From the IMG/VR virus record IMGVR_UViG_3300023184_000079, positions 17,645 through 81,644 of that record: a DNA stretch of 64,000 bases, one strand, 5' to 3'. A model generated the notes under the pieces. The model worked only from the letters and a program-made list of their open reading frames with translations, was not told the DNA's origin and searched no databases. Of this stretch, positions 9,987-48,236 are shown piece after piece; the first letter of the stretch is position 1, and every line of letters starts with the position of its first letter. A program made the position numbers and the translations under genes. The DNA is from a virus.

Positions 9987-10502
9987 TTAGTGTTTTATAT
10001 GTAGGTCGTGCGTTTGCGGTTTAAGACTCTTAGGATTAAGCACCTCGCACAGACCGCCCTGCTTCGTACCGTCGGTAAAGATTACCCACCACTTACGTGG
10101 ACGGAGTCCTAGATAAATCTCTGTCCGATCCCAATAAACTACTTCTGCAAGTTGTTGAGGGCCGCTTCCAACATGAGCAAAACAGAAGCCGGGGATGGGG
10201 CCGGGGTAGTCTCTGCTTGAAACAACCGAGTTATTGACCCCCGCTTTATCGCCTTTCATATCAAACTGGACTTCACGTACCCAGACAGAGGCCTTGAGTT
10301 CGCAACCATTGCACCAGCAGGTATCTTGGCGCTGTTCAGACTTAATGGTCAGAATATTGTCTATGGCGTCCTGCATTATTTTTTCCCGTATCGTTGCTTC
10401 TTCTTTATTTGAGCCAACCGGGGTCTTTGTTGCCAGAAAGGTATTGCCGTCACGGTATTCGTTGGCGTACTCTTCTTCTTTGATTTCTTCTTCTTCGTTC
10501 AT
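9987..10502 (-). CDS. Unrecognised acidic protein with two Cys pairs
   Basis: 171 aa from ATG 10502, which overlaps the stop of the giant gene upstream in an ATGA. Begins with a very acidic stretch (NEEEEIKEEEYANEY). Residues about 60-75 contain CWCNGCELKA, a possible metal site, and the C-terminal half is Trp/Tyr-rich (RPRKWWVIFTDGTKQGGL). No family recognised. The overlap says it is co-translated with the 1544-aa protein. Confidence 0.7.
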   Translation of the reverse strand: MNEEEEIKEEEYANEYRDGNTFLATKTPVGSNKEEATIREKIMQDAIDNILTIKSEQRQDTCWCNGCELKASVWVREVQFDMKGDKAGVNNSVVSSRDYPGPIPGFCFAHVGSGPQQLAEVVYWDRTEIYLGLRPRKWWVIFTDGTKQGGLCEVLNPKSLKPQTHDLHIKH

Positions 10503-13500
10503 ACTACGCCTTCTCCATCGCATACATCGCATTTGGCGGTGACTCTACCATCGGAGTCACAATCATAGCAAGTGGTTTGCCCGTGTCCATTGCATAATCC
10601 GCAAGTCACCCTCCCCGTGGCTTCACAACTCTCGCACGGCAGGCCATCAACGTGACCGTCTCCATCGCAATATCCACATTGCGCCTTGCCGCTCCCTATG
10701 TACATACCGGGACGGCGGCGGTCGGTGACGGCCATGTCGCATCCGTCGCATTTTAGTTTCTCCGTGCCATCGCACTTAGGACATTTTATATTAACTTCGC
10801 CATTTCCTTTACAATTGGAGCAAGTGTTGTCTGTTACTAAGCCGTGTCCATTGCAGATTTCGCAAATTTTCGAGAAATCCGAATACTCCGACAACCCATA
10901 ACCACTGCACGTGTCACACATCTTAAGGGCAACCTCGTCGTTGCTCCCGGTTTCCGCGTCCGCCTGCGTTAGATCCATTATTCGAAAATAACCGTTATTA
11001 AATCTCATTATCGCAAGATTTTTACCCCCAATAGTAGGATCAGTTATTTCGCTTTCTGTAGCGTCCGGCGGTTCTAGTTTCATTCTGCTCAAAGTAGAAA
11101 GCGACTCGGCCAAATCCATTTGCGAGACAGCATGCGTTCCGTCCCGGGCACCGTCGTCCATTCCCAATGCTAACATGTCTGATGCATTGTTGCGCATTGC
11201 AATTTGAACCCACGCTGCATATTCTTCGACATACCCAACAGCCGGAAAATTTTTACGCAAACTTGCGTTATGCCAAAGAATTTCAAGGCCTTGCCTATAG
11301 CCTTCCTCAAAATATTCGCTGATAATTCCGAAAGACTTCAAAAGATTTTTCATTCTGCGCTGATCCGTGCCTTTGTCGGTCGCAGCGAAACTTCCAGCGT
11401 AAGCAAGTATGTCGCTATTAACCGCGACAATAAGATCATTGGTAAAACCATTGTATTTTGCAGGAACTAGGTTAGTAGGATTTGCTATTTGTGCAAGCGT
11501 GTCAACGTCATTAAAATAAACAAATGGCGTTTTGGCGTCAAATGTTTTTGACCACATATCTAGTAAGTTGTCGTCTATCTTTCCACGCGCGAATTCAAGA
11601 ATCATTTGAAATTTTCTATACTCATTTTCTTCCCCGAGCAGGCCATCCGTTGTGCACTTGAAATAGTCAGAAAGAACTTCTGGATTTTCGTTATCAAGAT
11701 GATAAAGTTCCATTCCCAAAGTATTATAAAGACGCTTCCAGTCCTCTCTCTCTATCACGTTCCTCAGCCACCCCGGATCAGAACTTGTTTCGGCAACAAT
11801 TTCCGCAATATCATATATAATCTTTATGAACGTAATCTCAGCCGCTCTTTGTATTTGTTGAAGAGTAGTCGATGGAGATAATGAGGGATAATTATAAACT
11901 TCATTATTAATAAATACTGGCGTTTTTTCGCCATTACCATTGTCGTTAACAACCCACCAATCTGGACGTTCAATTTCTTGAAAAAGAGGCAACTGTTTAT
12001 CTTCTATGTAAATCGAATGATCTTCTTTAACCTTTTGATATATACGATTAAAATATTTCTGTTTTGCATTATCCACAGCCCGAGGGTCTGCCCGGTCTAA
12101 AACACCACCGTCTTCTAGTTCAACTTCTGCGTTATTGCCGTTGATATCCTGCTGAATCAAATTGAATTGTTGGGCGCTAAAGATATTCTTGAAAGTCTCA
12201 TAGTTTGAATAAAAATTTTGGTAGAATAGATATGCTCCGACACCGGGGTCTTCTGCAAAACTGCGCCGCCACTGCGTAAAAGAAATGTCTAAATCGCGCA
12301 GACACTGCCGAGTATCATCAATGGCATTTTCGGTTGCATAACTTTGCGATGCTATGGCGTCCAACAGGTCATTGCTGGAGACACTCTCATCAAGAAGGAA
12401 CTCTACCATTTTTTGAATTGTTTCATTGGGTCTTGTACTATTTGCAACAATAGAGCGCAGCCCCACTCCCACGTTTGGCTTGCTGCCCAAGTCAATGGCA
12501 GGGTCTACGCTTGTGTTGAGGTACGACATAATAACGTAATAGTAGGCAGCGTTTTTTGCGCCAACCTGATCATAGAAGTCGTCGCCCATAGTGTCTTTTT
12601 TGGTGTCCTCCCGGCCCCGGGCAAGTCGTTCTGATATAAGATCAATAATTTCATTGAACGGCTCCTCGGCCGCCCGATTGTTACCGAAAACTTCTGAACA
12701 GAAGGAATCTCCGTCACGGAAGGCGTCGCCGACACCTTTCATTTGTAAATCTTTGCTCCAATATCGCACCCCCTCTTTCGCCTTTGCCGAAAGCGTTTTT
12801 ATATTGCCAATCTCCTCCCCCTGCTCAATTCTGTAATAATTTTTGCCCTCGCGGAAAAAGAAAGTAATCAAAAGTATGATAACATCATGATATCTGTTTT
12901 TCGACCCTATATCTAACCCAACCAGTCCGATTATTTCTGCGACCATTGAGCGATAATCGTCCGGATACTCGGCCCATCTGGAAGCGTTTTCCAACGCCTC
13001 TTCGTAAATCTCGTCTTCAATTCTTGTCAAAAGGGTTTCCTCTTCAAAGAATTCGGCAACGTTGACTACAATATCTGTTCTAAGTTCTGAGTCAAACATT
13101 TTTTTGCCGGATATTCCAAGAGCGGCTTTAAATCCCTTTGCCTGCTCTGCCCGTCGCCGTGACCCCTCGAAGGCCTCCGACGACAGGCTTGCGTATTCGA
13201 CGACTCGTCGCTGCATTTCGTTGGCTCGTCGTATCTGTCTTCCCATCCCGCCGCCACGCAGCGCGTCTTTGTTGAGATAAATATCTATTAGGTTAATAAA
13301 AATATTAGAAGTATTTTTTTCAGAAATAGATGACGCTTGTATTAACTTGCGGTTCTCTCGCATCGGTCCAAAGTCTGGATCAACATGCTCTGTATTGTTC
13401 TCTTTCGACCACCGTATGCCCTGAAGAACTTCTTCTGGTGAGTAGGTGTTCATATACTCTTCAAGTTCTTTATCACCGCCCTCTTGATCGTCGCGAAGGA

Positions 13501-15133
13501 GGGGCATAATAAATCTTCCATATGCGTACTTGCCCTTTGCATTTAGATCTCTTAATGTCTCCCAATAATCTTCCCATGACATCGGCTCAAGAAGGTTTGT
13601 CTCGCCATTCTCTCTGACTCTTTCTTTTGAATTCTCATATTGGTCGTGATCTCCAGAAAGAAAATCTTCATAAAATTTAGATTTTCTTTCGCCAATGGCT
13701 TCTTCCGACGTGTCTACCCCAAGATATGCAAAAATATCTCTGAGCGCAAAGGCAGTCGGGTATGTTGGAATTCCATTTTTCCAAGAGTGCATGGCTGAAA
13801 GAACATATGAGCCCGGATCATTCATAATGGTAAACGTTGCTTGTGGAACTCCTTTGAGACGTACAGAGAAATCTCTGCTTATACCCTGATCGTGAGCGCG
13901 CTCGTAGTAGCCATGGCCGCCCCCAATACAATGGTCTAGAACCGCGCCCTCATTGGCGTAGTCGTCTTGCGTTTCCAGTTCGTAGAACTCCCAAGCGTCT
14001 GGTCTATTCTTATCCGGATCCACGCTTGGCACACCTTCTATCAAGCGCCCACCGAGACCGAAGTTTCTTGCGACAAAAGCCGTATTTGTGCTGCGCATGT
14101 TTTTCATTATGATTTTGGAGGCAACTGCAAGAACGGCAGCCGGAGTTTTGGCTTCATTAGCAAAGCGAATGGCAGGTCCTAGTACGTCGCGGTTATCATA
14201 TGGAATCTGTTCAGTTTCAAAATAATGTTTGGAATCGCCGTTTAAAAATGTATAGGGATTTGTTTTTAAATTTTGAACCAGTTCGCTATCAAGTTTGACG
14301 AAATCATAACTGTCAGTAACTTTCCTCTTTGAAAAAACATCCCAAGCCACTATTGCTTCCTTCATCTTCCTCAAGTCTTGGGCGCTTGTTGCGGCTCTGT
14401 ACATTAAATTAATAATGTCTGAAAAATAGTTTTTGTCTTCCATCATTTGCTTAAAAAGCAAATCAAAGAACTTCATAATTGCTCTATATCCACCGTCTGA
14501 ATTTGGATCCATCGGATCATATATCTTATAGAATCCATTTTTTAGCCTTTCTCGCGTCTGTCCTGTCGATTGAATTATTCCTTGCGGACCAACGTCACTA
14601 TCGTTTAGAAGCCACGGAATTTGCAGGGGGAAAATGGTAAATTTGTCAAGACAGGTCGTGAGGTTATCAATAAACTCCAGATACGTTTTTTCCGCTGATA
14701 AGTCATCAGAGATTAACCATTTCAAAGAATTTTGCTTTAAATCTTGATTAACCATTTCAAAGAATTTTGCTTTAAATCTTTTTGTTGAGGCGTTTGCAAT
14801 TATTTTTTCAAATGCCTGCTCTATACTCAGTATTGTTGCATCAGCCTCTACGATGAAAGATGCCGTGCGGGACAAGTAATCATAGACGACATCTGCGATG
14901 GCGTTACGGTCGCCGCTAGCGTCCTCAAACTTGACGTATCCGCCGGGGGTGATCTCTCCCTTGGCAAACAATCCTTGTGAGGAGTGGGGCAGGTATCCCG
15001 ATGCCATGAGATTGACCTCGGTTCTCAACTCCGGCATGCCCTCTTCCAGAAGAGCGAAGTGCGGATTATCCCCAATGTTTACATACGGCGCTTCGCCGTC
15101 AAAGGGAATAAATGCTATCCAATTCTTCGACAT
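10499..15133 (-). CDS. Giant PcfJ-like protein with C-terminal DnaJ-type zinc repeats
   Basis: 1544 aa. Residues about 375-470 contain a PcfJ-like core: EGAVLDHCIGGGHGYY, then SRDFSVRLKGVPQATFTI and a SYVLSAMHSWKNG segment. The C-terminal 150 residues hold about ten CxxC motifs, several of the DnaJ form CxxCxGxG (CDTCSGYG, CEICNGHG, CSNCKGNG, CGYCDGDG, CGLCNGHG). The middle is a long alpha-helical region without recognisable motifs. PcfJ-like proteins occur on conjugative elements and phages; their function is unknown to me. A perfect 35-bp tandem duplication lies at residues about 118-141. A TAATAGA motif directly precedes the start. Confidence 0.85.
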   Translation of the reverse strand: MSKNWIAFIPFDGEAPYVNIGDNPHFALLEEGMPELRTEVNLMASGYLPHSSQGLFAKGEITPGGYVKFEDASGDRNAIADVVYDYLSRTASFIVEADATILSIEQAFEKIIANASTKRFKAKFFEMVNQDLKQNSLKWLISDDLSAEKTYLEFIDNLTTCLDKFTIFPLQIPWLLNDSDVGPQGIIQSTGQTRERLKNGFYKIYDPMDPNSDGGYRAIMKFFDLLFKQMMEDKNYFSDIINLMYRAATSAQDLRKMKEAIVAWDVFSKRKVTDSYDFVKLDSELVQNLKTNPYTFLNGDSKHYFETEQIPYDNRDVLGPAIRFANEAKTPAAVLAVASKIIMKNMRSTNTAFVARNFGLGGRLIEGVPSVDPDKNRPDAWEFYELETQDDYANEGAVLDHCIGGGHGYYERAHDQGISRDFSVRLKGVPQATFTIMNDPGSYVLSAMHSWKNGIPTYPTAFALRDIFAYLGVDTSEEAIGERKSKFYEDFLSGDHDQYENSKERVRENGETNLLEPMSWEDYWETLRDLNAKGKYAYGRFIMPLLRDDQEGGDKELEEYMNTYSPEEVLQGIRWSKENNTEHVDPDFGPMRENRKLIQASSISEKNTSNIFINLIDIYLNKDALRGGGMGRQIRRANEMQRRVVEYASLSSEAFEGSRRRAEQAKGFKAALGISGKKMFDSELRTDIVVNVAEFFEEETLLTRIEDEIYEEALENASRWAEYPDDYRSMVAEIIGLVGLDIGSKNRYHDVIILLITFFFREGKNYYRIEQGEEIGNIKTLSAKAKEGVRYWSKDLQMKGVGDAFRDGDSFCSEVFGNNRAAEEPFNEIIDLISERLARGREDTKKDTMGDDFYDQVGAKNAAYYYVIMSYLNTSVDPAIDLGSKPNVGVGLRSIVANSTRPNETIQKMVEFLLDESVSSNDLLDAIASQSYATENAIDDTRQCLRDLDISFTQWRRSFAEDPGVGAYLFYQNFYSNYETFKNIFSAQQFNLIQQDINGNNAEVELEDGGVLDRADPRAVDNAKQKYFNRIYQKVKEDHSIYIEDKQLPLFQEIERPDWWVVNDNGNGEKTPVFINNEVYNYPSLSPSTTLQQIQRAAEITFIKIIYDIAEIVAETSSDPGWLRNVIEREDWKRLYNTLGMELYHLDNENPEVLSDYFKCTTDGLLGEENEYRKFQMILEFARGKIDDNLLDMWSKTFDAKTPFVYFNDVDTLAQIANPTNLVPAKYNGFTNDLIVAVNSDILAYAGSFAATDKGTDQRRMKNLLKSFGIISEYFEEGYRQGLEILWHNASLRKNFPAVGYVEEYAAWVQIAMRNNASDMLALGMDDGARDGTHAVSQMDLAESLSTLSRMKLEPPDATESEITDPTIGGKNLAIMRFNNGYFRIMDLTQADAETGSNDEVALKMCDTCSGYGLSEYSDFSKICEICNGHGLVTDNTCSNCKGNGEVNIKCPKCDGTEKLKCDGCDMAVTDRRRPGMYIGSGKAQCGYCDGDGHVDGLPCESCEATGRVTCGLCNGHGQTTCYDCDSDGRVTAKCDVCDGEGVV
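14711..14780 (-). repeat. Perfect 35-bp tandem duplication inside the 1544-aa gene
   Basis: Two identical 35-bp copies (14711-14745 and 14746-14780). Because 35 is not a multiple of three, the copies are read in different frames, giving RFKAKFFEMVN and then DLKQNSLKWLI, yet the gene stays open. Confidence 0.95.
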
Positions 15134-15165: not shown

Positions 15166-15801
15166 CTATGGGGTAAAATTAATGCCGCTGTTCCAAATAA
15201 AATGGCTAGCCTTTTCCCAAAGTCGATCCTTTTGCTCCATGGACAGGCTGCCGTATCTCGGGTCATCATACATGTCTTTGACCTGCTTGATTAATTGTGA
15301 GCAATGATTATAAAATTCAATTTGCGCCTGCTTGTCCGGTTCTTGATTTGGCTGTCCCGCCCCCGGAAACTGGATAAGGTCGCCTGCGGTTTTGACCGCT
15401 TCTTTTTTCTTTTTTTTATTCACGGATTCAAGTGATTCATTTTCTAAGAGAATCTTGGCCCAGTCTGGTTGTCCGGGTTTATTTTCGCCCACGGGATAGC
15501 GTGGAAAATACAGATCTGACCCGACCTCGCCGCGCGGTTTTTTCTTTTCTTTTTTCTTACCTGATTGTTTGTCGTCAAATTTGACAGACCACACCTCATG
15601 CGATCCACAATCGGGACAAGTAGGTGGTATATCGAAGACATCATAGCCGCCTCGTTTTCCGCAGCCATAACATTCCATAGTGTTCCACAATTCGGATCGA
15701 AGACCGTCTTCAACTTCGTCCCAACTAAAATTACCTTTCTCGTCAACAGACTTTTTGAACCACTTCCAACGCTCGTTTGCTGTTTCAAATTTAAATGCCA
15801 T
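15166..15801 (-). CDS. Tagged protein (N-terminal FETANERW) with zinc ribbon
   Basis: 211 aa. Starts MAFKFETANERWKWF, the N-terminal tag shared by five consecutive genes. Residues about 44-68 form a zinc ribbon (CYGCGKRGG then CPDCGSHE). A Lys-rich linker (KKKEKKKPRG) and a helical C-terminal part follow. Last gene of the tagged cluster; stop is TAG. Outside the tag it is unlike its neighbours. I infer a cargo or accessory virion protein; the biochemical role is unknown. Confidence 0.75.
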   Translation of the reverse strand: MAFKFETANERWKWFKKSVDEKGNFSWDEVEDGLRSELWNTMECYGCGKRGGYDVFDIPPTCPDCGSHEVWSVKFDDKQSGKKKEKKKPRGEVGSDLYFPRYPVGENKPGQPDWAKILLENESLESVNKKKKKEAVKTAGDLIQFPGAGQPNQEPDKQAQIEFYNHCSQLIKQVKDMYDDPRYGSLSMEQKDRLWEKASHFIWNSGINFTP

Positions 15802-15805
15802 TGTT

Positions 15806-16315
15806 TCACATTCCTAAATGATCAAAAAACTTTTTTTCTTTGCTCTGTTCTTTGTTCCTAAGATCATGGACTCGCCATCGATGTTTTGATTCGTCGAATT
15901 CCAAGTTGTCAAATCTGGTTTTCCATTGTTCTCCGACGAGGGTTGGGTCCATAAAACCGGAATTTGCATAAGTCTTTTGCATGTCGTCAAAGATATAGTT
16001 CCAGTCTATTTTTCTTTCGTCTATAAATCCAGAGTTGTCATAGAAATCTTGAAGTATTTTATTATTGTATGGGCCTAGCCATTTTCCAATAACATACTCT
16101 GCCAATCTCTGCGGCCCCGCGCCATCCGCCCCCATGCCTTTTCTTACGACACCCCAAGCGTCTTGGATACTGTTGTTGTTGTTGTTATTCATCTCTGTTC
16201 GGACTTGTTGTGTTTCGTAATTTGGAGCATCTTGATACGGAGCGTCTTGATCAAAAAGGCGACCAGAGAGATACCACTTCCAACGCTCGTTCGCTGTTTC
16301 AAATTTAATCGCCAT
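15806..16315 (-). CDS. Tagged protein (N-terminal FETANERW), related to the NGWTNWDTW gene nearby
   Basis: 169 aa from ATG 16315, chosen because it gives MAIKFETANERWKWY, the shared tag. An Asn run (MNNNNNNS) lies at about residue 47. Its middle (WLGPYNNKILQDF, ERKIDWNYIFDDM) resembles the protein at 16834-17382 (ISPYNKNLMDEA, SKVNWQEIYDSIV), so the two bodies are probably homologous. Overlaps the upstream gene by 11 nt. Confidence 0.7.
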   Translation of the reverse strand: MAIKFETANERWKWYLSGRLFDQDAPYQDAPNYETQQVRTEMNNNNNNSIQDAWGVVRKGMGADGAGPQRLAEYVIGKWLGPYNNKILQDFYDNSGFIDERKIDWNYIFDDMQKTYANSGFMDPTLVGEQWKTRFDNLEFDESKHRWRVHDLRNKEQSKEKKFFDHLGM

Positions 16316-16844
16316 TTTTAAATTCAACCTGAACATTTCTCATCCTGTTAAAGACAACAGTCATATATAGGAAATCATAAACAAGTTTAAAAAAATCATT
16401 TGCATTCATATCATTGATATAAACATCTGGATCAGAGATAACCGCTTGAGCCACCATTTTGATATGTTCGGAAATTTCTAAAAGGGTTTGTTTTGCCTCG
16501 TCGGCCCATTTAGATTCACTCATCGGCCCTAAAAGTACCCAGTCCTTGTCTTCAGGCTCCCATCTCTTGAGCACCTCAACAAGACCAAGCGCAGCATCAT
16601 AAATAGTTTCGGCAGTTTCTGGAACTAAATCAATAGGGTCTCTTCCCTGAGCAAGAAGGGGGGACAGAAATTCATTATTGATATCGGTTAGCAAAGGTTG
16701 AATTCGGACAGCCTGATCAACATACTCTAGATCTTTGTCTACCCGATCCCATGATCCGTCGGTGGCTGGTTCATCCTGCCAATCGGACTGCTTACGATTG
16801 AACCACTTCCAACGCTCGTTTGCTGTTTCAAATTTAAATGCCAT
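16305..16844 (-). CDS. Tagged protein (N-terminal FETANERW), helical body
   Basis: 179 aa from ATG 16844 (MAFKFETANERWKWF). The body is acidic and helical (DKDLEYVDQAVRIQPLLTDI, ETIYDAALGLVEVLKRW) with no recognised motif. It overlaps both neighbours by about 11 nt, so the cluster is read as one operon. A start at 16898 would add 18 residues before the tag and is less likely. Confidence 0.7.
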   Translation of the reverse strand: MAFKFETANERWKWFNRKQSDWQDEPATDGSWDRVDKDLEYVDQAVRIQPLLTDINNEFLSPLLAQGRDPIDLVPETAETIYDAALGLVEVLKRWEPEDKDWVLLGPMSESKWADEAKQTLLEISEHIKMVAQAVISDPDVYINDMNANDFFKLVYDFLYMTVVFNRMRNVQVEFKNGD

Positions 16845-17382
16845 TGTTCTGTTCTTCCCATCTTCTGTTTTCTTCAATGCGGCCGACAATGGAATCATAA
16901 ATTTCTTGCCAATTCACTTTGGAGTCTTGAATTATGTGATCATTCATATCTGTTGGCTGCGGTTCTCCAAACAATCCATACGCTATGTTTCTCATTCTTT
17001 CAACATATTGCGTGCGAGCCTCGGGATCATTTGGATGACGCTCTTGTGCCCGCGCCATCCAGTCCTCTACGTCTCTCTCTCTCATGGCCGCTACTTCCTC
17101 TTCGTCGGTCCAATTCTGAGCCTCATCCATCAAGTTCTTATTGTAAGGACTTATAATGTTTTGCAGAGCCCAGTCGGATAGTTGCTGAACGGATCCACCG
17201 CGCTCAACGAGTTTGTAAGCATACGAAGACGTTTCTTCTTCGTTGTCAATTATTAAAGCAGTGTTCCAAGTGTCCCAGTTTGTCCAGCCATTATAGTTGT
17301 CCGCAGAAGGATCCATTGGGTCAATGACACTTTGCTTGTACCAGTCCCAACGTTCGTTTGCTGTTTCAAATCTAAATGCCAT
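16834..17382 (-). CDS. Tagged protein with NGWTNWDTW domain
   Basis: 182 aa. Tag MAFRFETANERWDWY, then KQSVIDPMDPSAD, identical to the next gene upstream, then NGWTNWDTWNTALIIDNEEE. That motif marks a small phage family seen in many tailed phages, of unknown function to me. The C-terminal part (SKVNWQEIYDSIVGRIEE) completes the family pattern. It is in frame with the upstream gene, separated from it by a TAG and ten sense codons. Confidence 0.75.
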   Translation of the reverse strand: MAFRFETANERWDWYKQSVIDPMDPSADNYNGWTNWDTWNTALIIDNEEETSSYAYKLVERGGSVQQLSDWALQNIISPYNKNLMDEAQNWTDEEEVAAMRERDVEDWMARAQERHPNDPEARTQYVERMRNIAYGLFGEPQPTDMNDHIIQDSKVNWQEIYDSIVGRIEENRRWEEQNNGI

Positions 17383-17389
17383 TGTAACT

Positions 17390-17395
17390 ATTACC
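17390..17395 (-). promoter_or_regulatory. TAATAG motif before a tagged gene
   Basis: GGTAAT then AGTTACA then ATG 17382; -10-like box with 7 nt to the start codon and no Shine-Dalgarno sequence. Same arrangement as before ATG 17973 and ATG 40956. Confidence 0.4.
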
Positions 17396-17409
17396 TTGCG
17401 CTTGGGGCA

Positions 17410-17973
17410 CTAAGGAAGCGTCCTTAAAACGCGCGCGATGTCTTCATGCTGACGACCAATCGTCTTAGCAGATTGATTAAACCAATCTTTCAACTGTGCG
17501 ATTGAGTTTATTGCGTCTTCATTTGGAAGCGCCTGCTGTTCTTCAATGGCGAGAACTGCATTGCCGACGAGATAGGACATCTGGCCGATGGCATCAAGAA
17601 TATTCTTTCTAAAGTCTGCCTCTGCCTTATTTGTCGGAATCCAGACATTTATGATTTCCTTGTAGCCGCTTTCAAATATTGCCGATTCGGCCTGCTTCAA
17701 GTAATTCAGATATTTTTCGATATGGCTTCGGATTTCGCCGCCCGTGTAATCGTCCAACAATTCTTCAAAGGCAGCGTCACTATAGTCTTCAAGGGCGTGG
17801 TTGTTCCCTCCCGCTAGGCTCCATGACAAATCGAACAATTGGTCAAGAGCCGCAAGTTTTTCCTCCAGACGAATTCTTTGTTCGCTGGCGTCCGCAGAAG
17901 GATCCATTGGGTCAATGACACTTTGCTTGTACCATTTCCATCGTTCATTTGCTGTTTCAAAACGAAATGCCAT
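17410..17973 (-). CDS. Tagged protein (N-terminal FETANERW), first of its cluster
   Basis: 187 aa. Tag MAFRFETANERWKWY followed by KQSVIDPMDPSAD, shared with the next gene, then a helical acidic body (IRLEEKLAALDQLFDLSWSL, YLNYLKQAESAIFESG). No family recognised. First gene after a terminator at 18061-18097, so it should have its own promoter; TATAGTAATAGAT sits directly before the ATG. Stop is TAG, in frame with the following gene. Confidence 0.75.
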   Translation of the reverse strand: MAFRFETANERWKWYKQSVIDPMDPSADASEQRIRLEEKLAALDQLFDLSWSLAGGNNHALEDYSDAAFEELLDDYTGGEIRSHIEKYLNYLKQAESAIFESGYKEIINVWIPTNKAEADFRKNILDAIGQMSYLVGNAVLAIEEQQALPNEDAINSIAQLKDWFNQSAKTIGRQHEDIARVLRTLP

Positions 17974-30346: not shown

Positions 30347-30421
30347 TGGGGAAGCCCGGAATCGAACCGGGGCGCCAACAGCGTCAAGCCTGTTGTGTCG
30401 CTACCCTACGACCACCTCCCC
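30347..30421 (-). tRNA. tRNA-like gene with enlarged anticodon loop
   Basis: Acceptor GGGGAGG/CTTCCCC, D stem GTCG/CGAC, T arm CCCGG-TTCGATT-CCGGG are all good. The anticodon arm is CAACAG/CTGTTG around an 8-nt loop GCTTGACG instead of 5 bp and 7 nt, and the variable loop is 4 nt. The isotype cannot be assigned safely. Either a non-canonical tRNA, perhaps affecting frame, or a decaying gene. Confidence 0.75.
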
Positions 30422-40378: not shown

Positions 40379-40915
40379 CTATAGCAGAGTGGGAGGATCC
40401 CAGAATTCAAGCCATTGATCCCGATCTACATCGGTGCCAGTAAATATATCTAGGGGCGAAAATTTTGCATCAAGAAACCTATGATAGTATTCTGGTTTGA
40501 TATCTGAATTATGTCTTCCTGTAAGGTTTGCCGAACTTAGATCCAATTCAGTATCCAGTGTTGCACGAGGAATATTATTCGGATCTCTGAGCGAATATAT
40601 TGCCATGTTTGGCAATGCTGAGTCTGCCGCCTCGCCAGCATATTCTTCCCATCTATCAGATATAAAATCTTGATCCGACCATTTATCGCGCTCAATGCCT
40701 TCCCATTCGCATGGAGGAGACAAACAATTGCCTACCAGTTCACCTTCACGAACAAGGTCTTTCCATGTTTGCGGTTGTCTAATAGTCCATCCATCGGGGA
40801 ATGTATAGATAATTTTGCTAGTATCTTCTGGGAGTTGGGCCGCTCTATTCAGAAGTTGAGTGGTTGTTTCTGCCGCTTGATGCAGCATCTCCGCTCTTGT
40901 TTCAATACGCTTCAT
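40379..40915 (-). CDS. Tagged protein (MKRIETR) with PcfJ-like core
   Basis: 178 aa. Tag MKRIETRAEMLHQAA, then IIYTFPDGWTIRQPQTWKDL, VREGELVGNCLSPPCEWEG and MAIYSLRDPNNIPRATLDTE. The EGE-x-V-x-NC then I-x-L-R-D-P-x-x-x-P-x-A order is the same as in the pentapeptide protein at 46389 and resembles a minimal PcfJ-like core. Divergently arranged with the gene at 40956. Function unknown; suspected capsid cargo. Confidence 0.75.
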   Translation of the reverse strand: MKRIETRAEMLHQAAETTTQLLNRAAQLPEDTSKIIYTFPDGWTIRQPQTWKDLVREGELVGNCLSPPCEWEGIERDKWSDQDFISDRWEEYAGEAADSALPNMAIYSLRDPNNIPRATLDTELDLSSANLTGRHNSDIKPEYYHRFLDAKFSPLDIFTGTDVDRDQWLEFWDPPTLL

Positions 40916-40920
40916 TATCT

Positions 40921-40926
40921 ATTATC
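40921..40926 (-). promoter_or_regulatory. TAATAGAT motif before a tagged gene
   Basis: Minus strand GATAAT-AGATA-ATG 40915. Part of a 40-bp divergent control region shared with the plus-strand gene at 40956. Confidence 0.5.
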
Positions 40927-40942
40927 TTGCCGCCATCTTATA

Positions 40943-40948
40943 TATAAT
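40943..40948 (+). promoter_or_regulatory. TATAATAGAT motif before a tagged gene
   Basis: TATAAT-AGATACC-ATG 40956: consensus -10 box 7 nt before the start codon, no -35 and no Shine-Dalgarno sequence. Confidence 0.55.
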
Positions 40949-40955
40949 AGATACC

Positions 40956-41528
40956 ATGTGGCGTATATCAACTAGAAAAGAAATGCTATTTAAGACGGCG
41001 GAAGAAGAGAGGGTAGAAGTTAACCCAAACACAAGAAATCAGTCTCAATGGTATTTTAATATCTATGAGATTAGTGAGGTTTATGGCGGTTCAGAAGAGG
41101 GTGGTTGGTATTATACTGCTGGCGAGCCTGTTGAAAGCATAAAACTTAAAAATCCTTTTCCGGAGAATGCGTACATTTCCCCACAAGAAGATGGCGGTAA
41201 CGAGGCATATTTTGAAAAAGAAAATACAGAAGTAGACGATTTTCTTAAGTTTTTTGAAAGCAAAGGGTATACTTTTAATGGCAAAAACAGATTCAAAACA
41301 AGCCCCCAACAAGCCGAACAAGAGGATTTCGCTAACGCGCAAAGAAATTATGGTCCCGATGAGGCTGCTGAAGTTTATTTAGAGGGTTCTAAAGCCATGG
41401 AAGAGTTCGCTCAAGGGCATCCGGAATTGTTGGACAAGTGGTACATGGATCAATACACCGATTATTCTTATCGGATTGAAGACCACCCCGGCAGATCATT
41501 CCCCCAACAGGGGCAATACTACCAATAA
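40956..41528 (+). CDS. Tagged protein (MWRISTR), plus strand
   Basis: 190 aa. Tag MWRISTRKEMLFKTA, a variant of MKRIETR. The body is Tyr/Glu-rich (YFNIYEISEVYGGSEEGGWY, NTEVDDFLKFFESKGYTF) without recognised motif, and ends in a Gln-rich tail. Followed after 3 nt by a second, truncated copy of the tag. AT-rich compared with the early genes. Confidence 0.7.
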   Translation: MWRISTRKEMLFKTAEEERVEVNPNTRNQSQWYFNIYEISEVYGGSEEGGWYYTAGEPVESIKLKNPFPENAYISPQEDGGNEAYFEKENTEVDDFLKFFESKGYTFNGKNRFKTSPQQAEQEDFANAQRNYGPDEAAEVYLEGSKAMEEFAQGHPELLDKWYMDQYTDYSYRIEDHPGRSFPQQGQYYQ

Positions 41529-41531
41529 CCT

Positions 41532-41627
41532 ATGTGGCGCATATCTACTAGACGAGAGATGTTATCTGATTTTGATGACGGTAAAAATCCGTTTGACCTC
41601 CGCTCACGTTGCGGACCTCAAAACTAA
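41532..41627 (+). pseudogene. Tag-only remnant of a tagged gene
   Basis: 31 codons: MWRISTRREMLSDFDDGKNP and a short tail, stop TAA at 41625. It carries the complete tag but no body, 3 nt after an intact tagged gene and at the edge of the hairpin-rich gene-free stretch. Probably left by recombination that removed or never completed a body; a functional short peptide cannot be excluded. Confidence 0.55.
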
Positions 41628-41670
41628 TACAATACTCATAAAAAGTGAAGATAACGTATTAGTTTTGAGG
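41616..41670 (+). repeat. 15-bp perfect inverted repeat
   Basis: CCTCAAAACTAATAC at 41616-41630 pairs with GTATTAGTTTTGAGG at 41656-41670 across a 25-nt loop. It spans the stop of the tag-only ORF. No T-run follows, so it is not a classical terminator. Confidence 0.85.
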
Positions 41671-42089
41671 AGAGTCTTTGACGTTGTTCACGTATAGAGT
41701 GTATTGCGTGTGATCTGGTGCGACGCTCATGTGTCCATTACGAGACTCTCGTATGTCCAATAGTGTGGTTGTTATGTCGTCTTTGACGTTGTAGATAAGC
41801 CCGGTGTGTATCTACATGTGTGTGCGGAACCGTATCAGTTTGATACGCTATAGCACATGGCGTGTTGTGTACTACTGCAGGTGTACGCCATCATGTATCC
41901 TCTGCAGGCGATTACCTGCAAATGGCTTGTATCTCTCTAGGTGGTACTTTCCAAGTGTAGGATCGGTTCTAGGCATTACCGCTTGTTGTGTCTAGGCATT
42001 CGTGAAGATTGGGTCTGAGAGGTTCTCTTTGTCTGCGAAATATCGTGCATACGGACGATATTTCGTGCATACTTGGGTCGTGAATCTGG
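41671..42089. ncRNA. Hairpin-rich gene-free stretch, possible structured RNA
   Basis: No gene. Successive perfect stems: TACGAG/CTCGTA (41739-41753), GTAGATA/TATCTAC (41791-41815), CGTATCA/TGATACG (41831-41847), ATGGCGT/ACGCCAT (41857-41891), TGCAGG/CCTGCA (41903-41920) and CGAAATATCGT/ACGATATTTCG (42036-42065). Direct repeats GTCTTTGACGTTGT (41674, 41779) and TCTAGGCATT (41968, 41991) also occur. The density suggests a functional RNA or a recombination/replication region; strand unknown. Confidence 0.45.
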
Positions 42090-42153
42090 CTCGCATAAAG
42101 ATGCGAGTTAAAGGCGTTTAACCCTGCGTAATCGCTTATTTATGCGAGTTAAC
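42090..42153 (+). repeat. Flanking repeat, left copy
   Basis: About 62 bp similar to 46221-46280: both contain GCGAGTTAAAG, TAACC, AATCGC and TTTATGCGA in the same order. Internally CTCGCAT (42090-42096) can pair with either of two ATGCGAG copies (42101-42107 or 42142-42148). Lies at the end of the leftward tagged cluster. Confidence 0.6.
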
Positions 42154-42793
42154 GTAGCAAAGATGCTAGTTTATCGTATTGGAAATAAGACTCATTTAAT
42201 GATATCGCCTCTGGTGAAATCGGCCCTTTGTATGAAAAAGTTTTTAAATTGAATATTGATTCTTGAACAAATTTCGGCTGATCTATTATGTGAGATTGCG
42301 ACTCAGCGTACTCGCCAAGTGATTGCTGCCCCGGCTCAAGTTTGTGATGAATATTAATTAGATTTTTGGGATGAAGTCTAAAGTGTTCAGGTAAGGAATC
42401 AATACCCTCAATCTCCATATTTGTATCTAGGGCATCTTCATCAAAATCTACTTTTGATGGATCCAGTTGTCTTGCGTCTATTTTGAATTGACAAAACGTT
42501 TTACTGTCAGTTCTTAGATAAACATGATTTGCTCTTGGTTCCCCAACTGTTCTATCGTAGACACTTTTACCAAGAACGTCCCATGGTATTAGACCGTTTT
42601 GCAATATGCTTTGAATAGTTTTAATTCCCTCTTCATCAATTCTTGCAGACATATTTTGATGATATACAAAAGGATATGTCTGAATGAACGTATTCCACCA
42701 ACGCTGATCAACAGCCATGCTTAAAAGCGTAAACCTGTGGCCGCCCTGTGAATAGCCATAGATCATCTCTTTTCTTGTTTCAATACGTTTCAC
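42149..42793 (-). CDS. Tagged protein (MKRIETR), ADP-ribosyltransferase-like
   Basis: 214 aa with GTG start at 42793 overlapping the preceding TAG. Tag MKRIETRKEMIYGYS. YPFVYHQNMSARIDEEGIKT, IQSILQNGLIPWDVL and ANHVYLRTDSKTFCQFKIDA follow the pattern of small ART-like folds (YH...SIL-x-x-GL-x-P...VYL). SLGEYAESQSHIID near the end is shared with the C-terminal half of the 471-aa protein at 44296, so this is a paralogue of that half. Activity not proven. Confidence 0.7.
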   Translation of the reverse strand: MKRIETRKEMIYGYSQGGHRFTLLSMAVDQRWWNTFIQTYPFVYHQNMSARIDEEGIKTIQSILQNGLIPWDVLGKSVYDRTVGEPRANHVYLRTDSKTFCQFKIDARQLDPSKVDFDEDALDTNMEIEGIDSLPEHFRLHPKNLINIHHKLEPGQQSLGEYAESQSHIIDQPKFVQESIFNLKTFSYKGPISPEAISLNESYFQYDKLASLLR

Positions 42794-43599
42794 TATTGAA
42801 ATCCCATTTCAAATGATCCCGGCTCTGAGCCCATCTCTTCATGAAGCGGATTCATTGTTCTTTGGCGTTCTGTGGCCACCCATATAGCGGCTTGTGTATC
42901 GCGAGGAGATTGGCCGTATTCCTTCGCAATTCTCCGAATAGCGTTTTGAATTGCTCTTCTTGCTGGATTTCCCACACTTCGCAAAGAATCAAATCCTGCT
43001 GCTCTTGCAATAATGACATCTACGGCAATTGCATCAGGATCGCCAGTCATGGCTTTAAAGAATTCAGTGACCTTGGGTCCGGTAACATACTGTTCAAAAT
43101 TTGATTCGTCTGCTATGAGAACATTGAAAGCGGCTCTAAGGTTTGATGAATTCTTAAGTTTTATTTCATCAAACGGAAATGTCGGACCGACTGGGTGAGT
43201 ATCCATAGGACCCCTCCCCCATGGACCGGCCGACCATTCGCCTTGTTCATTTATTTCAGCCACAGGATTCGTAACGAAGCCTGCTCCATGTTTTAAAACG
43301 TAAGAGATTATCTCTTTTGCTTTTCTAACATTAATTGCCCATTCTACTTGTGGACTGGTGACTGCGATGACAGCGGCCACTCTTTCGGGAGATACTGCGC
43401 CATTGAATTCGTCACTTATATTTTGACAAAGGTTGAAAGCATTTGGGTACCAGTTAACCCCTTCGGAAAAAGCGCGTTCTTTTCCATAAATATTAAGAAT
43501 TTTTCTAAACCGTCTGGAATAGAGATTTTCCTGACTGTTATCTTTAATACTGGCCGCAGCATTAAAGATCATTTGATCTCTGGTTTCAAGACGTTTCAT
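42793..43599 (-). CDS. Tagged protein (MKRLETR) of a phage DUF7178-like family
   Basis: 268 aa. Tag MKRLETRDQMIFNAA. Body: PERVAAVIAVTSPQVEWAIN, VTGPKVTEFFKAMTGDPDAI, AVDVIIARAAGF and PRDTQAAIWVATERQRTM. The order AalSP-x-x-x-W-x-x-N, GD-x-x-A-V-x-D and Q-A-x-x-W is one I associate with a conserved phage family (DUF7178-like), perhaps related to helix-hairpin-helix DNA glycosylases. DNA-related function inferred weakly. Confidence 0.7.
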   Translation of the reverse strand: MKRLETRDQMIFNAAASIKDNSQENLYSRRFRKILNIYGKERAFSEGVNWYPNAFNLCQNISDEFNGAVSPERVAAVIAVTSPQVEWAINVRKAKEIISYVLKHGAGFVTNPVAEINEQGEWSAGPWGRGPMDTHPVGPTFPFDEIKLKNSSNLRAAFNVLIADESNFEQYVTGPKVTEFFKAMTGDPDAIAVDVIIARAAGFDSLRSVGNPARRAIQNAIRRIAKEYGQSPRDTQAAIWVATERQRTMNPLHEEMGSEPGSFEMGFQ

Positions 43600-43601
43600 A
43601 T

Positions 43602-44294
43602 CTATCCTATACCAAGTGTTTGTGTTGCTTGTTGACCGACTTCAGACCAATAGTCCTCACTGGGAAATCTTCCGGGATTGTTGGGGTCACCATTCTGTAT
43701 CAACTTCATGTTGTTTGTTGATAGTTCCTGTATATCGGGAGGCAAAGAATTGAAATACTCTTCTGTTTGCGGTTCAATAAATTGTATGCCGCTTTCAACC
43801 AATTTCTGAGCCATCGCGTTTGCATCAATTTCTTGCTCTCTTCTCTGGTGTATCTTTTGTGTTTCCAACCAATCAGTGGTTCGTTCACGAGGCGCATTTT
43901 CAAATTCTCTTTCTTCCATATATTGGTACAGATGCTGTAACTCATGGATAAAAATGTAGTTTGCATTTTTTGGAGTTTGATATTGAAAAAGATATATTCT
44001 ATACTCTTTGCCGCGCTGCGGCCTCCTCCACTGAACGCTGACGTTCTTGTAGTTTCCAATTCTAATTATCAAAGGAGCATCTAATCCAAAAACTGGATCA
44101 AATATTAACTTATTGACAAGATCCTCATTGACTTTAAAATACGGCAAATACTCACCAACAACATCAACTTCGACTTTGACAGGAGAATTGTGCCGTGCGG
44201 GACCTTGTCGGTTTTTGATTGCTTCTGCAAATGGTTGCCAATCATTGGCTGCTGGTACAGAAAGCATTTGCATTCTTGTTTCTATGCGCTTCAT
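43602..44294 (-). CDS. Tagged protein (MKRIETR) with zinc-peptidase-like motif
   Basis: 230 aa from ATG 44294, giving the tag MKRIETRMQMLSVPA. NYIFIHELQHLYQYMEEREF contains HELQH, of the HExxH form, and REQEIDANAMAQKLVESG provides an Asp/Glu-containing helix as a possible third ligand, as in many small metallopeptidases. A phage protease acting on host or virion protein is possible. Start lies 1 nt after the TAG of the gene upstream. Confidence 0.7.
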   Translation of the reverse strand: MKRIETRMQMLSVPAANDWQPFAEAIKNRQGPARHNSPVKVEVDVVGEYLPYFKVNEDLVNKLIFDPVFGLDAPLIIRIGNYKNVSVQWRRPQRGKEYRIYLFQYQTPKNANYIFIHELQHLYQYMEEREFENAPRERTTDWLETQKIHQRREQEIDANAMAQKLVESGIQFIEPQTEEYFNSLPPDIQELSTNNMKLIQNGDPNNPGRFPSEDYWSEVGQQATQTLGIG

Positions 44295-44295
44295 A

Positions 44296-45711
44296 CTACC
44301 GCGCAGGCCCGAGAAAAAGTTTATCCAGTTCATCACCCGTGAGTGGCCGACCCCATGCGTCTAAGACGACGGGCAGCACTATATCCGCTATCGCTTCTAA
44401 AGGCACAGTTCCCCAATATGCGAGAGTCTTGTTATGTTGAAGAGATTTCTGAGTAACATCTGGGTCATCAAGAATCTCTGCATTTTCCTCTGCCCAAGCC
44501 CCAAGACTTTCTGGGCCACTTTCCGGCCACCATTCTGGATGGCTTGTAGGATAGGACCGAATTCCATCAAACATCTCATTATTTGGATTTTTAAGATATT
44601 CGTCTTCAACATAGTCTTCATCTGCTGAGAATCTTGATGCTTCTAGTTTGCGTAGGTCTATAGTGAGTCTTACGCCGTCTCCATGAAAGTGGGGACTTAT
44701 ATCCTTAACATGCATATAAACAAATCCTGCTCTAGGGATAACGTGTGCGAGGCCGTCGTCAATATACTTTTCTTCTACTCTTGAATTTGGAATTTCATCC
44801 CATGGCATTAGGCCGTTTTTGAGGATTCCCTCAAGGCTTTCATAACTTGTGTCATGGTAGGCATAGGGGCCGTTTTGTTCAATCCATTCTTGTAAATCTT
44901 CTGGCCGCATAGCCATTGCCTTTTTGGAGAACATTGGCTGATATTTGTAGCGGGGAGTGCCATCTTCATATTGAGTGAATTCGTCTTCGTAATCATCGTA
45001 GGCAATAGTGTTGACGCTGTTTGGCGAGGGCTCAGTTCCTGCTGGGTAATATGAGGCGATACTTATATTTTGAGCCGGGATTACACCAAGATATACGAAA
45101 GCGCCATTAGAACGTAATTCTTTCCACAACTCGGTCAAATCACTTCTTTGTTGACGGCTCATTTTCATAATTTCATCGAAAAGAATACCGCCCGATGTGT
45201 CATTTTCCATCCAGTAGAAAAAACTTTCGGCATTTTGTGGTGCTTCTGGGGCTTTGTTTCCATTTATTCCCCATTCAACAAAGAATTCGGGGAATCCTGC
45301 TTCTCTGATATCAACGTATGCCTCTTCCCAACCTTCTACTGTGCCATCATATGCATCGCTTACACGAACAGCAAGAAATTGATTTAATTCCTCTGGATCA
45401 GGAATAATCTTTTGAAGATCAAGTCCAGTAATTTTAAGAATGACTGGATCTCCGCCCGGATATCCCTCGCTCTTAGCAAGAGAACTTTCGTTGAAGGACC
45501 ATTCTTGAGCCGTGGCTATTGTAGAAGCAAGATAAACTCCATTCTCAGCCACACTGTGCCTTGGGAAATTCTTATTTGCAATACCTCTACCAGTCGGCGT
45601 CAAGCCATGATCCCGAATAGACTGGAGGTTGAGTTCGCTAGTGACGTGATACCATACGTTTGTATCGTATGGCATAGAGAGCATCTGTCGTCTTGTTTCT
45701 ATGCGTTTCAT
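44296..45711 (-). CDS. Tagged protein (MKRIETR) with two ADP-ribosyltransferase-like halves
   Basis: 471 aa. Tag MKRIETRRQMLSMPY, then VWYHVTSELNLQSIRDHGLT with NGVYLASTIATAQEW, the YH-x-T...L-x-S-I...HGL...YL layout of Tpt1/DarT-type ART folds. The second half repeats it: YAYHDTSYESLEGILKNGLM, GFVYMHVKDISPHFHGDGVR. T4 packs the ADP-ribosyltransferase Alt in its head; this supports a cargo role by analogy. Target and activity unknown. Confidence 0.75.
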   Translation of the reverse strand: MKRIETRRQMLSMPYDTNVWYHVTSELNLQSIRDHGLTPTGRGIANKNFPRHSVAENGVYLASTIATAQEWSFNESSLAKSEGYPGGDPVILKITGLDLQKIIPDPEELNQFLAVRVSDAYDGTVEGWEEAYVDIREAGFPEFFVEWGINGNKAPEAPQNAESFFYWMENDTSGGILFDEIMKMSRQQRSDLTELWKELRSNGAFVYLGVIPAQNISIASYYPAGTEPSPNSVNTIAYDDYEDEFTQYEDGTPRYKYQPMFSKKAMAMRPEDLQEWIEQNGPYAYHDTSYESLEGILKNGLMPWDEIPNSRVEEKYIDDGLAHVIPRAGFVYMHVKDISPHFHGDGVRLTIDLRKLEASRFSADEDYVEDEYLKNPNNEMFDGIRSYPTSHPEWWPESGPESLGAWAEENAEILDDPDVTQKSLQHNKTLAYWGTVPLEAIADIVLPVVLDAWGRPLTGDELDKLFLGPAR

Positions 45712-45717
45712 TATCTA

Positions 45718-46170
45718 TTATTGTCTAGTCGGCGCAGGATAAGTTGCAAAACCTATCTGACTGGGATACAGATACGATGGCAGGTAATTATGCTCATCGG
45801 TAAGGAGTTCTGGGTCAATCATTTGGCGGCTTTTCAGGCCTTTTCTTCTGCCCCGCATTACTTGAACTGGCACAAGTTGATTGTCTTCTGCCGCCATCAA
45901 GCGGTGATTGCCTTCTGATACATGAGCCTGACCTGTTAAGTCATTGTAATCAACAATGATTGCATTATCATACTGCTGGCCGCGAAGTTCTTCAACTTTG
46001 TCCCAATCAGCGATATCATTGCCTTCCATACCACGAAGATCACCGGCTCTGACGTATTCCACATTAGGATAGCCGGGTAATGTGACTGGGTGTTTTGCTC
46101 TTTCTTCGTTAGGAACTTTATTCCAAAGCCATGAGAGCATTTGCCGTCTTGTTTCTACACGTTTTGCCAT
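45718..46170 (-). CDS. Tagged protein (MAKRVETR) with ParB-like motif
   Basis: 150 aa. Tag MAKRVETRRQMLSWL. The middle (NAIIVDYNDLTGQAHVSEGN, HRLMAAEDNQLVPVQVMRGR) resembles the ParB/sulfiredoxin-fold nuclease pattern, in which G-N-H-R is the nucleotide-binding GxxR box. First gene of the leftward tagged operon, so expression depends on the divergent region at 46171-46388. Confidence 0.65.
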   Translation of the reverse strand: MAKRVETRRQMLSWLWNKVPNEERAKHPVTLPGYPNVEYVRAGDLRGMEGNDIADWDKVEELRGQQYDNAIIVDYNDLTGQAHVSEGNHRLMAAEDNQLVPVQVMRGRRKGLKSRQMIDPELLTDEHNYLPSYLYPSQIGFATYPAPTRQ

Positions 46171-46220
46171 CGTACACCTTATGTCGTAGATATGGATCGA
46201 ATGCGTGGTCTTCTTATTCG

Positions 46221-46280
46221 CTCATATACGCGAGTTAAAGCAGTATAACCTAGAATAATCGCAAGTTTATGCGAATAACG
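46221..46280 (+). repeat. Flanking repeat, right copy
   Basis: Second copy of the element at 42090-42153, same orientation, about 4.1 kb away. The pair brackets the five-gene leftward tagged operon. It lies in the divergent promoter region. Confidence 0.6.
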
Positions 46281-46320
46281 ACATACCCAATTTTAAACAT
46301 CAATTATGTCGATTTTGGAA

Positions 46321-46346: not shown

Positions 46347-46375
46347 AGTTTCTATTATTTTGCCGTTATCTCAGA

Positions 46376-46388: not shown

Positions 46389-48236
46389 ATGGCGTTCCGC
46401 ATAGAGACTCGTCAAGAGATGTTGTCCGGTTTTCGTTATGCCGCCATCATTAAAGAGCAAAAACAGTTTGGATACTTCCTTGGCTCTTGGGTTTTTTCTG
46501 ATGTAGATGATGCCACCAAAGCAGCGAATACCCGCCAACAGATTCTTAATACGAAAAATGTAAAAGAAAACGAAGAAACAAGATACGTTGTTGAACAAGT
46601 ATTGACTTCGCTTGATGACTCCGCTTGGCGCTGGTTTGAATATGCCACAAAGTGGACACTGCATTACACCAAGCAAGTCGCTGCTGAAGGGCTGGTTCCT
46701 GAGGAGTATAAGACAAGACTCAACGGTCTAGTTGAGAACCTCATCACTCAAGTCAATCAAGGCTCTGCTAATCACACTCGGATGCAGTCTCCAGAACAAT
46801 ATTCTCAATGGACTCCAAAACAATTAGAAGAGTGGAACAAAGAGAACAATCAAGGGGATAGGCTTCAAGGATCAAAGTTTTATAAGAACAACGTTATTTA
46901 CACGTTTCCAGATGGCTCGACTATGGTTCGACTTGAGAACGAAAAAGACTACGAGATGGTTGGAGAGAAACTCTTTAACTGCGTAAGACACGAGCAACCA
47001 AATGGATGGAAGAACCATCCGGGAATGATCGCTCTTGTTGATCCAGAAGGAAATCCAAAAGCGGTTGCTAGGTTTGGTGGAGATGGACAAAGGATAATAA
47101 GTCCCGGCGAACCACAGTACATGAAGATTTGCTATGAGTTCCAATCTCAAGAGAAAGGTCATCCGGTAATAGCATACAACTACGGAGAATACCTGTTTGA
47201 GTTTCTTGAAAAAACGACTCCTGAGGACTTAGGATTCGAAGGAGAAGCATGGGAAAACGAATCCAAAGTTCAACCACCACATGAAATTGTTAAAAGATAT
47301 AAACAAGGAGAGAGGGATTTCCAAAGTATGGACCTGAAGGGCGCGGACCTGCGTGGCGCGAACCTGTCTCGCGCGGTCCTGCGTGGCGCGAACCTGCAGG
47401 ACGCGAAACTGCGTGGCGCGAACCTGTATCGCGCGGACCTGTCTGACGCGGACCTGAAGGGCGCGAACGCTGGCGGCGCGGACATGAAGCGCGCGAACCT
47501 GAATGGCGCGAACCTGATTGGCGCGCTCCTGTCTCGCGCGGACCTAAATAGCGCGGACCTGAAGGGCGCGGACCTGTCTGGCGCGCGCCTGTTCAAAACG
47601 GACCTGTATGGCGCGGACCTGTATGGCGCGAACCTGTCTGGCGCGGATCTGACGGAAGCGGACATGAATGGCGCGGACCTGTCTGGCTCGGACCTGTCTG
47701 GCGCGAATCTGACTGGCACGGACCTGCGTGGCGCGATCCTGCGTGGCGCGAACCTGTCTGGCGCGTTCCTGTCTCGCGCGGATCTGATTGACGCGATCCT
47801 GTCTGGCGCGAACCTGTCTCTCGCGGACCTAAATCACGCGATCCTGCGTGGCGCGATCCTGCGTGGCGCGAATCTGACTGGCACGGACCTGTATCGCGCG
47901 GACCTGTATGGCGCGAACGTGACTGACGCGAACCTGAAGGGCGCGAACCTAAATAGCGCGATCCTGACTGGCGCGAACCTGTCTGGCGTAGACCTGTCTG
48001 GCGTAGACCTGCGTGGCGCGAAACTGATTAGCGCGAACCTGTCTGGCTCGGACCTGTCTGGCGCGGACCTGAAGGGCGCGGACCTGTCTGGCGCGGATCT
48101 GACGGGTGCGAACCTGACGGGTGCGAACCTGACGGGTGCGAATCTGTATCACGCGAACCTGTCTGACGCGGACCTGTCTGGCGCGAATCTAGAGGGCGCG
48201 AACATGACTGGCGTAATAGACAATCAAAGTTATTAG
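46389..48236 (+). CDS. Tagged protein with PcfJ-like domain and about 59 pentapeptide repeats
   Basis: 615 aa from ATG 46389, chosen because it gives the tag MAFRIETRQEMLSGF and follows the TATAATAGAT box; an ATG at 46269 would add 40 residues. Residues about 165-250 hold the PcfJ-like core (VIYTFPDGSTMVRLENEKDY, GEKLFNCVRHEQPNGW, MIALVDPEGNPKAVARFGGD), shared with the protein at 40379. From about 313 to the end run A-[DN]-L-x-G pentapeptides, which form a right-handed beta helix. In Qnr/MfpA such helices mimic DNA and bind gyrase, so a host-directed role is conceivable. Confidence 0.85.
   Translation: MAFRIETRQEMLSGFRYAAIIKEQKQFGYFLGSWVFSDVDDATKAANTRQQILNTKNVKENEETRYVVEQVLTSLDDSAWRWFEYATKWTLHYTKQVAAEGLVPEEYKTRLNGLVENLITQVNQGSANHTRMQSPEQYSQWTPKQLEEWNKENNQGDRLQGSKFYKNNVIYTFPDGSTMVRLENEKDYEMVGEKLFNCVRHEQPNGWKNHPGMIALVDPEGNPKAVARFGGDGQRIISPGEPQYMKICYEFQSQEKGHPVIAYNYGEYLFEFLEKTTPEDLGFEGEAWENESKVQPPHEIVKRYKQGERDFQSMDLKGADLRGANLSRAVLRGANLQDAKLRGANLYRADLSDADLKGANAGGADMKRANLNGANLIGALLSRADLNSADLKGADLSGARLFKTDLYGADLYGANLSGADLTEADMNGADLSGSDLSGANLTGTDLRGAILRGANLSGAFLSRADLIDAILSGANLSLADLNHAILRGAILRGANLTGTDLYRADLYGANVTDANLKGANLNSAILTGANLSGVDLSGVDLRGAKLISANLSGSDLSGADLKGADLSGADLTGANLTGANLTGANLYHANLSDADLSGANLEGANMTGVIDNQSY
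47334..48218 (+). repeat. 15-bp coding tandem repeats (pentapeptide region)
   Basis: About 59 units of the form GGCGCGGACCTGTCT with variation mainly at the codon for the fifth residue. GC content rises sharply compared with flanking AT-rich DNA. Nucleotide identity among units is high, which suggests recent expansion. Confidence 0.9.

Follow-up and report, generated by a model that had tools for sequence, protein, structure and literature searches.

One N-terminal sequence on 16 open reading frames with unlike bodies in a phage genome: a candidate capsid-loading tag

Introduction

The internal proteins of phage T4 carry an N-terminal peptide that targets them to the capsid (PMC3012670). DarB of phage P1 has an N-terminal signal shorter than 30 residues that suffices for incorporation of a reporter in the head, and the Dar cargo protects the incoming DNA (PMC9024508). 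A further group, the polyvalent proteins, typically contains ART, zincin and ParB domains; for these proteins, packaging and injection are predicted (PMC5512222). Here we analyzed a stretch of 64,000 nucleotides (the window), which covers positions 17645-81644 of the 81,644-bp, probably incomplete IMG/VR virus record IMGVR_UViG_3300023184_000079, and describe a 12-residue N-terminal sequence, the tag, which in variants opens 16 open reading frames (ORFs) of this record. On balance, we favor the view that the tag may be a capsid-targeting or cargo-loading peptide for effectors that are packaged in the head and injected; that the proteins are packaged and injected, what the tag binds and any cleavage of it are inferences.

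Results

The tag follows the consensus M-(A)-[FK]-[KR]-[IF]-E-T-x-x-[EQ]-[MR]-[LW] and was searched for with a hidden Markov model (HMM) of the first 20 residues. Two loci had been proposed in an earlier note on this DNA, but three were found: two tagged ORFs (t1, t2) lie upstream of the window at positions 10405-11950 of the record (head locus, carrying MAFRIETAAERLEWYK and MAFRIETRVEML), five (a1-a5) at 15166-17973 and nine (b1-b9, large locus) at 40379-48236 of the window (Table 1). The five consecutive genes starting with MA[FI][KR]FETANERW that the note had described were confirmed, with minus-strand starts at 15801, 16315, 16844, 17382 and 17973. A longer shared stretch in two of them also proved correct and comprises 28 residues through KQSVIDPMDPSAD, 27 of which are identical in a4 and a5. 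As the note had stated, the bodies differ: after removal of residues 1-20, BLASTP gave no significant match among a1-a5, the best pair being a3/a4 with an E-value of 0.016. In having one short N-terminal sequence on several unrelated bodies, these genes share a feature of the capsid-targeting class.

All 16 HMM matches in the record were located at the start of an ORF, with E-values from 3e-13 to 1e-6. Most of these matches are sequences used to build the HMM, and because the model mostly re-finds its training sequences, the independent evidence consists of a score gap and a leave-one-locus-out test. When a profile of the nine-residue core [KR][IF]ET..E[MR][LW] was scored at every ATG, GTG and TTG of the record, tagged starts reached at least 23.7, the next-best start 13.1 and the best one in a reversed-sequence control 11.9. 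A profile trained without the head locus recovered both its members (E ~1e-8), one trained without the five FETANERW genes recovered two of them (E = 0.001), and one trained without the large locus recovered MAFRIETRQEML at 1e-6 and b1 at 4e-4. An unsupervised comparison of all N-termini yielded 31 N-terminal pairs with unlike bodies, compared to none in the reversed control.

A motif-free comparison of the N-termini separated two groups, one comprising MAFRIETRVEML, MAFRIETAAERLEWY, the five FETANERW genes, MAKRVETRRQML and MAFRIETRQEML, and the other the MKRIETR and MWRISTR starts. The MAFRIETR start clustered with the FETANERW genes without supervision. The earlier note had seen a bridge between both tag families in the start of the pentapeptide protein, which was confirmed as MAFRIETRQEML at position 46389, an internal start within a longer ORF. 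The bridge holds, and the decisive one is formed by the head locus (MAFRIETAAERLEWYK, MAFRIETRVEML) outside the window. Of the single sorting system suggested in the note, the clustering and the leave-one-locus-out profiles support one tag system, whereas sorting itself is plausible. We narrowed it to capsid loading because tagged genes keep their place behind the major head protein gene and their bodies resemble domains of injected polyvalent proteins.

The head-locus genes follow immediately downstream of those for the protease-scaffold, cement and major head proteins. The major head protein (phrog_2522, 2e-92) shares about 52% of its residues with its counterparts in Mycobacterium phage Myrna, Rhodococcus phage E3 and Gordonia phage Pupper, relatives that make an actinobacterial host probable, and the head maturation protease-scaffold protein (L006:13762-16296) matches phrog_18299 (1.7e-22). 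In close IMG/VR relatives, two tagged genes (G002) and one (G003) were present, all directly behind the head protein gene and with other bodies, and these were the only tagged genes seen there. In G001 and G008 the head protein gene adjoins the next conserved gene and the slot is empty. As to the bodies, domains of the b1, t2 and b7 type recur untagged in proteins of 1973, 990 and 818 amino acids (aa) of relatives, in which Pfam finds PcfJ. Two of these belong to G009, whose major head protein is 75% identical to that of the record: the 1973-aa protein (L120:4241-10162; G009:144241-150162) combines b1- and b7-type domains, and the 990-aa protein contains a t2/b1-type domain. The domain content of the 1973-aa protein, two PcfJ-related and at least two ART-like domains, resembles that of polyvalent proteins.

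The tag might alternatively serve sorting within the infected cell, by docking new proteins on some other protein of the phage or at a site where it replicates or assembles. This would be in line with a short, polar peptide that is under purifying selection on unlike bodies, and since the record is a fragment, the docking partner could lie outside it. Against it, tagged genes have a conserved location next to head genes, and the bodies match domains from proteins for which packaging and injection are predicted (PMC5512222); no compartment protein was found, although no search aimed at one was made. We consider this reading unlikely.

The codons of the tag (2-12) were compared for nonsynonymous (pN) and synonymous (pS) divergence. 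For the five FETANERW genes pS was 0.39 and pN 0.06, and for five MKRIETR genes 0.66 and 0.15, respectively, giving a pN/pS of about 0.15-0.23, values which are pairwise averages over very short alignments and thus indicative rather than exact. In the dozen codons just after the tag, pN was 0.62 (FETANERW set) and 0.69 (MKRIETR set), as for random sequences. The low pN alongside diverged synonymous sites indicates that the peptide is kept by purifying selection and does not only reflect recent copying. This bears on the possibility that the gene starts are a shared 5′ DNA cassette serving as recombination sites for body shuffling, with the peptide as a by-product, which we rate slightly below sorting within the cell. 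The swapped bodies behind near-identical starts, as in a4 and a5, speak for such a cassette, as does the sequence TAATAG, which is present at most 16 bases upstream of six of the 16 tagged starts, but of only two of 77 other ORFs of at least 80 aa (p = 2e-4). However, the synonymous sites of the tag have strongly diverged while the peptide was held, and most members have no upstream DNA in common; recombination may account for the origin of the tag, but not for its maintenance.

In the window, TAATAG precedes the starts at 15133 (an untagged gene for a 1544-aa protein), 17382, 17973, 40915, 40956, 45711 and 46389, none of which has a Shine-Dalgarno-like sequence, and it is possibly a shared promoter with leaderless starts. 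The close distance of TAATAG to the start codon at several such tagged starts could mean that the first codons are a translation or leaderless-start element, which raises or controls expression, rather than a protein address. Selection acts on the amino acids, however, whereas synonymous codons vary freely, and the internal operon members a1-a3 and b4-b6 carry the peptide without TAATAG, which makes an expression signal very improbable.

Comparison with relatives points to the tag as an element added in front of the bodies. In Synechococcus phage S-H9-2, the first residue of a free-standing DUF7249 protein corresponds to a4 30-31 (a weak alignment with E = 0.5, at the family signature motif), so the first 29 or so residues of a4 appear to be an extension. 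The DUF7178 relative of Rhodococcus phage Dorin has about 10 residues fewer ahead of the domain, which starts at residue 33 instead of 43. An AlphaFold model of a4 with low confidence (predicted local distance difference test, pLDDT, 58) shows a helix at residues 8-23 followed by a low-confidence linker, and is not decisive. That the tag is the remnant of an N-terminal domain of one ancestor whose bodies diverged past recognition is very improbable: the pairs b4/b7 and b9/t2 are truly paralogous and speak for it, but the bodies match different families (DUF7249, DUF7178, pentapeptide, PcfJ-related) and the untagged DUF7249 relative begins right where tag and linker end.

Outside the close relatives, no counterpart of the tag was detected. 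Seven named phage records, among them T4, P1 and Myrna, gave no match with the HMM. In IMG/VR, degenerate-codon scans for RIETRxEML, MAFRIETR, [IF]ETAxERLEW and KRIETRxQML returned nothing or unrelated and chance matches. FETANERW was present in two IMG/VR records, both close relatives, and absent from the GTDB genomes (257 Gb). When Myrna, Pupper and E3 were searched without supervision for tags with a different sequence, none comparable emerged: Myrna and Pupper were at control level, and E3 gave 91 N-terminal pairs versus 61 in the control, with tail/fibre repeat or low-complexity sequences making up its largest groups. In T4 this search placed no internal-protein pair among the top groups, which indicates that it is insensitive to small tag sets.

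Table 1. Tagged ORFs of the window and the adjoining untagged gene.
Feature	Position	Strand	Length (aa)	N-terminus	Body and remarks
untagged	10499..15133	-	1544		directly downstream of a1-a5; DnaJ zinc-finger region, weak PcfJ match, DPMDP motif, TAATAG-type start
a1	15166..15801	-	211	MAFKFETANERW (15766-15801)	zinc-ribbon-like, CYGC...CPDC (weak matches); VKTAGD motif
a2	15806..16315	-	169	MAIKFETANERW (16280-16315)	
a3	16305..16844	-	179	MAFKFETANERW (16809-16844)	no family match
a4	16834..17382	-	182	MAFRFETANERW (17347-17382)	DUF7249 (NGWTNWDTW), PF23907 1.6e-6; TAATAG before start codon
a5	17410..17973	-	187	MAFRFETANERW (17938-17973)	no family match; TAATAG before start codon
b1	40379..40915	-	178	MKRIETRAEML	domain homologous to PcfJ-containing regions of large phage proteins
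b2	40956..41528	+	190	MWRISTRKEML	no assigned family; KTAEEE directly after tag
b3	41532..41627	+	31	MWRISTRREML...	directly behind b2; absent from HMM training set
b4	42149..42793	-	214	MKRIETRKEMI	ART-like domain homologous to C-terminal half of b7
b5	42793..43599	-	268	MKRLETRDQMI	DUF7178 (8e-24)
b6	43602..44294	-	230	MKRIETRMQML	putative zincin (HELQH); DUF6782 metallopeptidase E 0.015, below cut-off
b7	44296..45711	-	471	MKRIETRRQML	two ART-like domains (YHVTSE..SIRDHGL)
b8	45718..46170	-	150	MAKRVETRRQML	ParB-like (phrog_723, E 0.007)
b9	46389..48236	+	615	MAFRIETRQEML	region homologous to second head-locus protein (t2); pentapeptide repeats (1e-99)

The ORFs a1-a5 overlap in part. The 1544-aa protein encoded next to them is possibly a co-regulated partner of the five tagged genes. 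It has only its N-terminal ~100 residues in common with proteins of 364-376 aa encoded at the same place in G001-G003, and because the similarity is confined to this part, a conserved start with a changed body applies to this protein, too. The motif DPMDP is common to the protease-scaffold protein, the 1544-aa protein and a4/a5 (0.03 occurrences expected in shuffled proteins); it was noticed post hoc and possibly links tagged proteins to the protease-scaffold protein.

At the large locus, b3 is probably the decayed remnant of a tagged gene; the ~500 bases after it contain no obvious gene. At the motif YHxTS...I..GL, b4 aligns with each half of b7, and both are weakly ART-like: in a sequence comparison against the PDB the best match was PARP10 with E = 1.4, and the AlphaFold model of the ART half is of low confidence (pLDDT 32). 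A region shared by b1, b9 and t2 sits in PcfJ-matched proteins in relatives. Apart from b7 and b9, which with two ART-like domains and with PcfJ-related plus pentapeptide parts, respectively, are loosely multi-domain, the tagged proteins look single-domain. A PADLOC search gave no match. At 30347-30421 of the window, ARAGORN predicted a tRNA-like gene with the four-base anticodon ttga.

The sequence K[TIMLVQ]A occurs seven times in the protease-scaffold protein (1.0 expected) and nine times in its G009 homolog (1.2 expected), in a scan that also included the homologs of G012 and G008. It recurs between domains of the polyvalent-like G009 protein as well as in a1 and b2. These are candidate maturation-protease sites, the motif having been chosen after the sequences were seen.

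Discussion

The short N-terminal label, the swapped bodies, the encoded head protease and the effector-type cargo fit the principle of the T4, P1 and polyvalent proteins. Our proposal is accordingly that cargo is loaded through attachment of the label to the prohead scaffold or shell. During prohead assembly, the tag would bind the scaffold, the protease or the major head protein at its inner face, and about 15 unrelated effectors would thereby be packed into the head and later be injected together with the DNA. In this model, these proteins (ART-, zincin-, ParB- and PcfJ-like, DUF7178, DUF7249, pentapeptide) would protect the incoming genome or reprogram the host. Some of the domains, fused in giant polyvalent proteins of relatives, would here be separate proteins, each with an address of its own.

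Several observations weigh against capsid loading. None of the 16 tagged ORFs has the T4 cleavage consensus [LI]xE within residues 1-20; b9 has a single IKE at residue 23. AxE is present at residues 8-10 in t1 and the five FETANERW genes, and b1 and b2 have it near residue 16; the other eight lack it. The tag shows no marked amphipathic character (mean moment 0.17 versus 0.24 for other N-termini). In the sister phage G001 no tag was found in its 71.5 kb, so the tag is not essential. The slot behind the head gene holds non-virion genes elsewhere, encoding NAMPT-like and NadR-like proteins in G009 and ribonucleotide reductase and RNA ligase in Stormageddon; because it is a general insertion site in this phage group, this position taken alone is only suggestive. 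Finally, the labels ART, zincin and ParB are leads based on motifs and matches below curated cut-offs.

We are evenly divided on a broader claim, namely that a phage with a Myrna/Bxz1-type head has evolved a capsid address code of its own, independent of T4, in which one interchangeable 12-residue label, carried by no fewer than 15 separate effectors from three loci, takes the place of the fused polyvalent proteins of relatives. If capsid loading is correct, the tag would allow the likely injected effectors of this phage, most without known function, to be listed from the genome sequence alone, and phage heads could be loaded with proteins by a second peptide, independent of that of T4.

As with the capsid-targeting sequence of the T4 internal proteins IPI-III, a short N-terminal peptide is found here on unlike proteins with swapped bodies in a phage that encodes a head maturation protease, and the accessory, anti-host cargo of T4 (PMC3012670) can be likened to the effector-type cargo. 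The sequences differ: with the HMM, nothing was obtained in the T4 record at E ≤ 1, whereas our record was positive, and the tag is unrelated to MKTYQEFIAE, a type of start carried by two or three T4 ORFs compared with 16 tagged ones here. Most likely, the tag resembles the T4 sequence functionally while standing outside its sequence family. For the Dar proteins of P1 no N-terminal consensus was reported (PMC9024508), whereas one tag is common to all 16 ORFs. The heads of SPN3US and phiKZ contain many internal proteins, a head protease and N-terminal propeptides (PMC5694885, PMC10052503), which are mostly 111-254 residues long and have no single short sequence in common, in contrast to a tag of 12 residues. 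With the polyvalent proteins of phages and conjugative elements there is an overlapping repertoire of ART, zincin and ParB domains (PMC5512222); these proteins are one long polypeptide, whereas here the genes are separate and each is tagged. Should capsid loading be correct, this would suggest that polyvalent multi-domain proteins and addressed single-domain cargo are alternative solutions to one problem.
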